Shown here: piece after piece, positions 10,487 to 13,500 of the stretch
Layout: every line of letters starts with the position of its first letter
Numbering within the stretch: position 1 is the stretch's first letter
Source of the DNA: Arcobacter sp.
GTDB lineage: Bacteria; Campylobacterota; Campylobacteria; Campylobacterales; Arcobacteraceae
DNA length: 64,000 nt
Assembly: GCA_002869565.1 (NCBI GenBank)
Contig: PKUJ01000027.1
Location: 160,368-224,367, forward strand
Reading direction: 5' to 3'
Program-made: the position numbers and the translations under genes
The notes under the pieces: model-generated
Databases searched by the model: none
Told to the model about the DNA's origin: nothing
What the model saw: the letters and a program-made list of their open reading frames with translations, nothing else

Positions 10487-10900
10487 TTAAAAGCCTGCAG
10501 AATAACCTCTGCTTGAATGACTTTTAATTAATCCATAATAAGTTTTGTCTCTAATTTGTTTAATCATATTTCTAAGAGTAAAGATAGATGTATTTTTATC
10601 TTTCCATGCATTCTTTTTGATTAAATCAACTTCAACTATAGTATTTTGACTTTTTAAGATAGTATGAAAAATATTCATTTGTGTTTTAGTTAAACCAACA
10701 TCAACATTTTTTCTATCAAAAACTTTTTTTAATACTTTATCGTAATAAAAACCTTTCCCTAAATCAATTCTACTGTTAATTTGTTGACTTAAAATTTCTT
10801 TTAATGTTTCTTCTATAGATAAATTATATTCTTTAGATTTACTCTTAAGAAATTTTTCCATATCTTTCGTTAAATCTATTGTTAAAATATTACTACTCAT
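10487..10900 (-). CDS. Small DNA-binding protein: RHH-like N-terminus plus OmpR-type winged helix
   Basis: A 137-residue protein with no receiver domain. Residues 1-42 (ILTIDLTKDMEKFLKSKS, then NLSIEETLKEILSQQI) have the strand-helix-helix look of a CopG/MetJ-type ribbon-helix-helix. Residues about 65-137 match the OmpR/PhoB C-terminal winged helix: LTKTQMNIFHTIL, then the recognition-helix region FTLRNMIKQIRDK and the terminal hairpin SHSSRGYSAGF. It is a single gene with its own terminator. It probably acts as a dimeric transcription regulator without phosphorylation control. The fold calls come from pattern only. Confidence 0.7.
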   Translation of the reverse strand: MSSNILTIDLTKDMEKFLKSKSKEYNLSIEETLKEILSQQINSRIDLGKGFYYDKVLKKVFDRKNVDVGLTKTQMNIFHTILKSQNTIVEVDLIKKNAWKDKNTSIFTLRNMIKQIRDKTYYGLIKSHSSRGYSAGF

Positions 10901-11022: not shown

Positions 11023-11721
11023 TTATTTATTTTCATTATTCCAACGTATTAAAAAATCATTTCTATTATATACTTTTGCCCCCAAATCTATCTTATATTG
11101 AAGTTGAGGATGTCCCAAATTCCAGAAGGTATAGCCATTTTTTTGTAAGTAGTTATTTAATAAAACAAGTTGAAGTTTCCCCCAATTGTTGTATTTTTTT
11201 TCTTTTGTTGTAAAACCACTTAAGGAAGTATAGATTTTGCCCACCTTGTAGCCGATTTCACCACAAATTAGCTGATTTGTTCCTTTTTCACACACTTCTA
11301 CACTAATTAGCTTAAAGTTTTTAATTAGATGTTCATTATTATTTATATTATTTAATATAGCAATATATTCATTTTTCATCCAAGAGTCATTATGATAGTT
11401 TTTTATTCTTTCACATACTTCATTAAAATGGTTATTTACAGAGAAAATATAGTTATTTGTTTTTAATATTTTTGATACCTTTGAGGAAATTTTGATATCT
11501 TTAAAATCTAATATTGCATAGTCAAACTGAATTTCAGGTAGCAGATAGAACTTATTGTTTTTATACATTGAAGTTGTAATGAATCCACATTGTGCAGCTT
11601 TTATATAGAATTCAATGGATAAGTCATCTGTCCAATAGTAGTTTTCTTCTATATTAGGATATATATATTCATTTAGAATAGTATTATTGTTTAAATCATT
11701 TAAAGTAAGATAATAAATAAT
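11023..11721 (-). CDS. Aat-like leucyl/phenylalanyl-tRNA-protein transferase homologue, non-standard start
   Basis: Family members move Leu or Phe from tRNA to N-terminal Arg/Lys of proteins, feeding the N-end rule pathway. An ATG at 11568 gives 181 residues, but the frame stays open upstream to 11730 and encodes clear family sequence (NIEENYYWTDDLSIEFYIKAAQ), matching the DLS-x-AY-x-GxF part of Aat before the LLPEIQFDYAIL segment. The C-terminal part has GEIGYKVGKIYTSLSG and WNLGHPQLQYKIDLGA, like Aat. No ATG, GTG or TTG exists in the extension. AGGGAG at 11732-11727 is followed by two ATT codons at 11721 and 11718. I place the start at ATT 11721. It lies directly behind the ABC exporter stop codon, in the same frame. 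Confidence 0.68.
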   Translation of the reverse strand: MIYYLTLNDLNNNTILNEYIYPNIEENYYWTDDLSIEFYIKAAQCGFITTSMYKNNKFYLLPEIQFDYAILDFKDIKISSKVSKILKTNNYIFSVNNHFNEVCERIKNYHNDSWMKNEYIAILNNINNNEHLIKNFKLISVEVCEKGTNQLICGEIGYKVGKIYTSLSGFTTKEKKYNNWGKLQLVLLNNYLQKNGYTFWNLGHPQLQYKIDLGAKVYNRNDFLIRWNNENK

Positions 11722-11730
11722 AAGAACTCC

Positions 11731-13500
11731 CTATATAAGTTGATTTTTTATAAATTCCAAATAATGACCTTCTTCATCTTCTAGTTCATCATGTGTCCCA
11801 CTTTGAACTATTTTCCCTTCATCTAAAACATATATTTTGTTTGCATTTTTTACTGTACTTAATCTATGTGCAATTGTAATTACTGTTTTATCTTTTAATA
11901 TAGGTTCTAATGCATTAAAAAGCTTTGCCTCAGTGTGAACATCTAGTGCAGAGGTTGATTCATCAAATATCACAACAGATGGATTTGCTATAACCATTCT
12001 TGCTATTGATAACCTTTGTCTTTGTCCTCCACTTAATCTAATCCCATGGCGACCTACAATAGTATTTAGTTTATCACTCATGTTAAATACTGTCTCTTTT
12101 AGTTGAGCTATTTCTAAAGCTTCATATATTTGTTCATCACTTATATTATCATTTCCCATAGTAATATTAAATTTTAGTGTGTTATTAAAAAGTATTGGCA
12201 TTTGAAGAACTAAAAAAAGTTCATCTCTTAAACTTTGCTTATTTATTTTATCTATACTAATATTATTATATTTTATATCTCCATTTTCTTTTGTATAGAA
12301 TCCTGCTATAACTTGTGCTAAGGTCGTTTTCCCACTACCACTTGCTCCAATAAGTGCAATTTTTTCACTTACTTGAATCTCAAAGCTAATATCTTTTAAG
12401 AGTGGCTTATCTTCAGAATAGGAAAAGTTCATATTCTCTAGTTTTATATGAACCCCTTTATTTTGTTTATCTAATAATTCATCTCCATTTGTTTCTGTAT
12501 GAAGTTCTAAAATTTTATTTATTCTTCCAATAGCAGCATTAGCTGTTGTGTAAGAGTATTGCATTGACAAAATATCTTGTACAGGAGTCATTATAAACCA
12601 AATATAGCCAAACATAGCAAACATCATACCAATACTTAAATCACTGTATGCAACCATTACTAGACCGCTAGCTCTTAGTATTTCAAAAGCTACAAGAAAA
12701 ACTGTAAAAGAGAATCTTTCATAAGCGACACTTTTGTAACTATATTCATTTGAAGTTTGTTGAATACGATTTGCTTTATTTATTGAATCATTAAAAAAGT
12801 AGTTTTCTTTATTGCTAGCTTTTATTTGCCCAAATAATTCCAATGATTCGCCTATGTTGTCCTGAAAATCCGCAATTGATTGATTCTCGACTTTTTTTAA
12901 ACTCCCAACTTGTTTTGATATTTTTTTTGAAAGAAGCATTATTATTGGTTGAATAAAAAGTATCATTAATCCTAGAATAGGGTGTATTGCAATCATTACA
13001 ATTGATACTGCAATCAAAGTTAAAACAGAAGCTACAAATTTACTTGCCCCTTTTATAATAAAATCATCAAGAGTATTAACATCTGTTATTAAGTTTGCAG
13101 CAATTGTACCACTTCCAAGACTTTCATATTCATTCATACATACAATTTTTAAATGATTTATTAATTTTTCTCTTATTTTAAAAGTTACATATTTAGAAAT
13201 ACTTGTAAAAATCTTTGTAATAATAACTGTAAAAATAAAATGAATAAGTCTTAACAATATTACAGCAATAGTTACAATAGCAATATAATAAAAAGAATTG
13301 CCAATTCCAAATAGATTATTAATATTGTTTATAAAAAAATCTGGTTTATTTAACAATACTTCATCTACAAGAATTGGAAGCATCAAAGGAATGGGGACAC
13401 TTAATAAAATGGCAATAATAGTTACTATTTGTCCAAGTATTAAGCTCTTTTTTTTATGAAGTAATAATTTCCATATATATTTTAAATTTATTTTTTTCAT
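11731..13500 (-). CDS. ABC exporter, fused permease/ATPase (MsbA-like)
   Basis: A 589-residue half-transporter. Residues 1-310 form six membrane helices of the type I exporter fold. The C-terminal nucleotide-binding domain has Walker A GASGSGKTTL, a Q-loop (LQMP), signature RLSGGQRQRLSIARM, Walker B VVIFDESTSALD and the H-loop IAHRLSTV. It would act as a homodimer to export lipids, peptides or drugs; the substrate is not evident. It is transcribed just upstream of the Aat-like gene, with that gene's ribosome binding site overlapping its stop. Confidence 0.9.
   Translation of the reverse strand: MKKINLKYIWKLLLHKKKSLILGQIVTIIAILLSVPIPLMLPILVDEVLLNKPDFFINNINNLFGIGNSFYYIAIVTIAVILLRLIHFIFTVIITKIFTSISKYVTFKIREKLINHLKIVCMNEYESLGSGTIAANLITDVNTLDDFIIKGASKFVASVLTLIAVSIVMIAIHPILGLMILFIQPIIMLLSKKISKQVGSLKKVENQSIADFQDNIGESLELFGQIKASNKENYFFNDSINKANRIQQTSNEYSYKSVAYERFSFTVFLVAFEILRASGLVMVAYSDLSIGMMFAMFGYIWFIMTPVQDILSMQYSYTTANAAIGRINKILELHTETNGDELLDKQNKGVHIKLENMNFSYSEDKPLLKDISFEIQVSEKIALIGASGSGKTTLAQVIAGFYTKENGDIKYNNISIDKINKQSLRDELFLVLQMPILFNNTLKFNITMGNDNISDEQIYEALEIAQLKETVFNMSDKLNTIVGRHGIRLSGGQRQRLSIARMVIANPSVVIFDESTSALDVHTEAKLFNALEPILKDKTVITIAHRLSTVKNANKIYVLDEGKIVQSGTHDELEDEEGHYLEFIKNQLI

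Follow-up and report, generated by a model that had tools for sequence, protein, structure and literature searches.

Natural starts at AUU, AUC or AUA (AUH) codons are known from few genes. The infC and pcnB genes of Escherichia coli are the classic AUU starts (cited in PMC1780047), and an AUU start is described for RcsD-Hpt of Yersinia pestis (PMC10191623). In Staphylococcus aureus, AUU and AUA starts with a strong Shine-Dalgarno site gave approximately 10 % of the AUG level in poor medium, and ccpN in rich medium gave up to 30 % (PMC13009471). An AUG start is normally maintained by purifying selection (PMC5622118), which makes its repeated loss in the gene family examined here more telling. 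The genome annotation of Arcobacter butzleri is stated to admit only ATG, GTG and TTG starts (PMC2147049), and annotation restricted to these three codons leads to truncation of proteins that start at AUH; the Aat-like protein described below would lose 51 of its 232 residues under such annotation, its AUH start being one that gene-finding programs overlook. Among the open-licence papers listed in literature searches, no earlier report of AUU, AUC or AUA starts in the Arcobacteraceae appeared.

The window, i.e. the whole stretch of 64,000 nucleotides that was analysed, includes an Aat-like gene and, immediately upstream, an ABC exporter gene (Table 1). On the minus strand, the sequence runs from the TAG of the exporter through GGA GTT CTT to ATT ATT. 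The initial annotation had pointed to an AGGGAG whose end precedes the two ATT codons by 5 and 8 bases and to an Aat-like frame that is continuous with the exporter except for the TAG, and reading the window confirmed both. It had also stated that ATG, GTG and TTG are absent upstream of the ATG at 11568, which holds for the 51 codons counted from the first ATT and for the 54 counted from the TAG. However, its description of the 51-codon stretch as conserved Aat sequence was too broad, as the first 43 residues are conserved only in a subfamily (60 sequences) and not in Aat at large. The comparisons set out below indicate that the Aat-like gene is very probably translated from the first AUU or, with less likelihood, from the next.

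Table 1. Features of the Aat-like locus in the window and further genes lacking an ordinary start
Feature	Coordinates	Strand	Remarks
Aat-like gene	11721..11023	-	as read from AUU; 232 aa plus stop
Putative ATT initiation codon, codon 1	11721..11719	-	ATN in 15/15 Halarcobacter species
Second ATT, codon 2	11718..11716	-	less likely alternative start
Shine-Dalgarno site AGGGAG	11732..11727	-	overlaps TAG of upstream gene; predicted pairing -7.4 kcal/mol
TAG stop of ABC exporter	11733..11731	-	in frame with Aat-like gene by coincidence
ABC exporter (PF00664 + PF00005)	11731..13500	-	upstream neighbour; only in Halarcobacter and Malaciobacter loci
ATG, codon 52, first canonical in-frame start	11568..11566	-	not used if the gene is read from AUU
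Downstream neighbour	10487..10900	-	weak Trans_reg_C match below cut-off; adjacency kept in Halarcobacter
DEAD-box helicase, Halarcobacter	L219:8150-9421	-	no ordinary start at conserved 5' end
Membrane transporter, g11	L251:10615-11529	+	no ordinary start at conserved 5' end
973-residue protein, g11	L253:15822-18740	+	no ordinary start at conserved 5' end

At E ≤0.001, 77 of 150 relatives had a match to the product of the Aat-like gene, the weak matches among these probably being canonical aat copies. With a limit of E ≤1e-25, orthologues were found in 71 of the 104 family genomes. Sixteen Halarcobacter genomes carry the gene and, with one copy ending at a contig edge (G007), 15 were available with their 5' end. 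Looking for ATG at this codon in orthologues was the check proposed in the initial annotation, and in these 15 species codon 1 is ATT in eight, ATC in three, ATA in two and ATG in two, so that 13 have ATT, ATC or ATA. It is ATT in all six Malaciobacter (g13) loci and in all three of genus g15, and is thus ATN in 24/24 loci of the three genera, two of them ATG. In 13/15 Halarcobacter, 6/6 Malaciobacter and 3/3 g15, the conserved 5' end carries an AUH codon and conserved sequence is reached without any ordinary start (ATG, GTG or TTG) ahead of it. Most of the orthologues in Halarcobacter and Malaciobacter have an AAGGA-type site in the matching position. Since the first two bases of codon 1 are fixed and the third is free, G included, it appears to be a start codon and not an encoded isoleucine. 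Beyond these genera, the majority have an ATG, TTG or GTG start lying a few codons further upstream; one g20 locus (L049) has an ATA seven codons ahead of codon 2 behind a good Shine-Dalgarno site, and in Sulfurimonas ATT (L129) or ATC (L130 and L155) occupies the exact position of the ATG in L128, L139 and L146. This comparison supports the suggestion of a genuine AUU start like that of infC, with AUU, AUC or AUA kept genus-wide and in other lineages and AUG present in two sister species.

The same data bear on whether this genome is the only one in which an ATG was mutated to ATT or misread as such, which has next to no probability. Other damage is present in the genome, where the clpA-linked canonical aat has an in-frame TAA, but ATT, ATC or ATA also occurs in 12 further Halarcobacter species, Malaciobacter and g15 are alike, and the Aat-like gene is under purifying selection. 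Because independent genomes carry the same state, the recent ATG-to-ATT mutation considered in the initial annotation is excluded and, by extension, so is a sequencing error.

Which of the two adjacent ATT codons is used is a separate matter. Codon 2 is ATT in 15/15 Halarcobacter loci, ATA or ATT in Malaciobacter, and aligns with an isoleucine, valine or leucine codon in most relatives whose start is upstream. Its 8-base spacing is good, and in L042 and L054 (g9) and L021 (g14) codon 2, as ATC or ATT behind a good Shine-Dalgarno site, is the sole well-placed ATH, indicating that the exact start codon can shift. Nevertheless, initiation at codon 2 instead of codon 1 is unlikely, as an untranslated triplet would drift and codon 1 has been kept as ATN in all 24 Halarcobacter, Malaciobacter and g15 loci, including the two with ATG. 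Initiation at codon 2 would alter the position of the start and not its kind.

The N-terminal extension appears to be translated. In a pooled estimate from six disjoint Halarcobacter pairs, dN/dS amounted to 0.116 in codons 2-23 and to 0.05 in codons 24-51, though for codons 2-23 single pairs with few sites reached high values (0.74 for L044/L048 and 0.31 for L039/L040), and these ratios indicate that codons 2-51 are under purifying selection. An AlphaFold2 model built from 60 sequences had a mean pLDDT of 94.8; residues 1-10 scored 87 and residues 11-20 scored 95, and the N-terminus is predicted with high confidence to belong to the fold. Orthologues lacking the extension, which the initial annotation had named as one of two findings that would overturn its proposal, did not occur. 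The alternative of a start further downstream, at an ATG in codon 24 in many relatives and in codon 52 here, with some other cause for the upstream conservation, draws on the codon-24 ATG being common in Halarcobacter. But the window lacks the codon-24 ATG, the codon-52 ATG is missing at the same position in many orthologues, and four Malaciobacter loci (L043, L044, L045 and L048) have no ATG, GTG or TTG within the first 60 codons. Moreover, codons 2-51 evolve like coding sequence, the segment is folded in the model, and where orthologues have an ordinary start it is located upstream. Use of the ATG at 11568 is disfavoured because conserved, well-folded sequence would be thrown away, and we consider any downstream start very unlikely.

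A further possibility is a fusion of the ABC exporter with the Aat-like protein, either by readthrough of the TAG, as raised in the initial annotation, or by a frameshift. It has in its favour that in the window the frames are continuous with the TAG alone between them. However, the distance between the exporter stop and codon 1 is 9, 10 or 11 bases depending on the species, so that the two frames agree in some species only; in L017 the stop overlaps the ATG. In addition, the gap in L010 and L013 has an extra in-frame TAA two codons before codon 1, g15 has another gene upstream, with its end at a distance of 54-59 bases, and other lineages have no exporter match upstream. Hence, as the frame varies, a second stop is present in two loci and the near neighbour is different or missing elsewhere, the readthrough fusion was set aside as extremely improbable, and initiation at AUU remains the preferred reading.

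In order to count start codons across the family, L066, which is missing its 5' end, and nine loci that were cut off or too remote were first left out, and the 138 loci that remained were reduced to 108 distinct ones. A strict rule was applied under which any ATG, GTG or TTG up to codon 5 was taken as an ordinary start; L010, with ATT at codon 1 and TTG at codon 5, thereby falls among the TTG starts. The start was ATG in 55 loci, TTG in 20, GTG in five, ATT in 18, ATC in seven and ATA in three, i.e. 28/108 have an AUH start. Enrichment of TTG or GTG is not claimed for the family because background TTG shares, themselves inflated by internal TTG codons, are broadly similar. A tree was built from 107 of these sequences with the start codon left out; it requires a minimum of eight changes between ordinary and AUH starts, or seven if L010 is counted as AUH, and a separate tree of 70 sequences needed four. 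The Aat-like family has thus moved repeatedly between AUG and AUU, AUC or AUA.

The strong Shine-Dalgarno site at a suitable spacing that is expected of AUH-start genes was found. Mean predicted pairing with the 3' end of 16S rRNA was -6.0 kcal/mol for the 28 ATH loci compared to -2.55 for ATG and -2.01 for TTG/GTG starts (ATH vs all ordinary starts, Mann-Whitney p 6e-9, ignoring kinship), a difference that is partly by construction as the best-pairing ATH was chosen when there were several candidates. In most ATH loci, however, the two candidate codons are adjacent and have equal pairing. RNA structure at the start site gave nothing consistent in four folds compared to shuffled sequences (z +1.07, +2.16, +2.50 and -1.19); in three of the four (window 11690-11770, L008 and L014) the start region was less structured than shuffled, the fourth being L043 with z -1.19.

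The occurrence of AUH starts in other genes was examined in approximately 400 kb from each of three Halarcobacter, two g11 (Aliarcobacter) and one Malaciobacter genome, plus the window. With an ATG preceded by a Shine-Dalgarno site as the anchor, 1,559 comparisons between orthologues were made; the aligned start was ATG in 1,383, GTG in 15 and TTG in nine, another ordinary start was nearby in 145, and the seven remaining comparisons include three rows of the Aat-like gene. ATH was found at the exact aligned codon in 0/1,559, from which it follows that AUH is rare outside certain genes. Wholesale replacement of AUG by AUH elsewhere was also considered, and is ruled out by the same count.

Genes without an ordinary start throughout their conserved coding sequence were tatD and ftsK in both Halarcobacter and Malaciobacter, together with a DEAD-box helicase in the former and a transporter in the latter; in g11 they were a membrane transporter and a 973-residue protein. 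Six of these candidates have Pfam families, whereas the 973-residue protein has none. In Halarcobacter, tatD (L311-L326) starts with AUH in 16/16 species (ATA in 15 and ATC in one), and ftsK (L327-L341) does so in all 15 species with a 5' end (ATA in eight, ATT in six and ATC in one) and never with ATG, such that both keep AUH in the genus that has the Aat-like gene. Three or four genes lacking an ordinary start were found in each sampled Halarcobacter stretch (295-325 comparable genes each), and the resulting value of approximately 1 % is a hand-curated lower bound, as the scans contained many antisense and overlapping-frame artefacts that were removed by eye. In contrast to the textbook situation, infC starts with TTG in 39/39 loci (L067-L096 and L106-L114) from 38 of 70 matching genomes across the order, and so the classic partner in AUU autoregulation is absent in its textbook form. 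A broader reading is that Halarcobacter and its relatives have AUU, AUC and AUA as a fourth, regular class of start codons, used by at least about 1 % of genes including ftsK, tatD and this transferase paralogue, jointly answering to initiation stringency (IF3 activity) and systematically mis-started in annotation. We advance this tentatively, and with somewhat more doubt than belief.

For the Aat-like gene, a strong Shine-Dalgarno site would position the 30S subunit over the isoleucine-type AUH codon and make up for a near-cognate start, and the initiator fMet-tRNA would read this codon with a mismatch at the third position, giving a product that begins with fMet. As IF3 would normally discriminate against the AUH codon, expression of the gene would be low and may rise once discrimination relaxes, be it at low IF3 or in certain growth states. 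This dependence on IF3 is suggested by analogy. The likely reason for a weak start is that the cell requires little of an enzyme that has the fold of leucyl/phenylalanyl-tRNA-protein transferase (LF-transferase) and probably uses up aminoacyl-tRNA. Hence, the odd start, kept as AUU, AUC or AUA in relatives, looks like a deliberate brake on the amount of protein in this marine bacterium. By comparing this set of genes across species, one may approach the question of whether weak starts persist because they keep the dose low or because they allow regulation via IF3.

The GES and DCQ motifs of Aat are catalytic. The Aat-like protein belongs to the Aat family in the wide sense, matching PF03588 over residues 44-205 with 53.8 bits (cut-off 22.7), and its best matches among solved structures are those of E. 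coli LF-transferase (2z3k, TM-score 0.79, 18 % identity), with FemX, ATE1 and other aminoacyl-tRNA-dependent transferases among further structural matches. Though fold and Pfam family are common to both, it falls well short of the Aat equivalog TIGR00667 (30.1 bits, cut-off 143.55) and the GES and DCQ motifs expected of a true N-end-rule LF-transferase are replaced; when aligned by hhalign to the canonical copy of the same genome, TSLSGF lies opposite CGESMF and NLGH opposite DC-Q. We infer that it is a transferase that uses aminoacyl-tRNA but differs in specificity. The genome of the window additionally carries two canonical aat copies. The clpA-linked one (L001:1405-2073) has its in-frame TAA inside the conserved GES motif, and the second, on another contig (L002), is intact. 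The orthologue of the Aat-like gene in G013 (L006) has an in-frame TAG late in the gene.

Among the closest described systems are infC and pcnB of E. coli, where AUU is a natural, translation-limiting start, as proposed for the Aat-like gene. The gene is a different one, however, and here the codon drifts between AUU, AUC and AUA and arose several times. In S. aureus, cvfC1 (AUU) and ccpN (AUA, conserved to Bacillus subtilis) combine a conserved AUH codon with a strong Shine-Dalgarno site as in the present case, but the genes and the phylum are others, and the measured yield applies to the S. aureus sites. The AUU of Y. pestis RcsD-Hpt also has a predicted ribosome-binding site, but it is internal to a frameshifted gene whereas the AUU described here would start a whole gene. 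AUU starts as such are therefore already known, and it is their recurrence in this family and the company of ftsK and tatD that are unusual.
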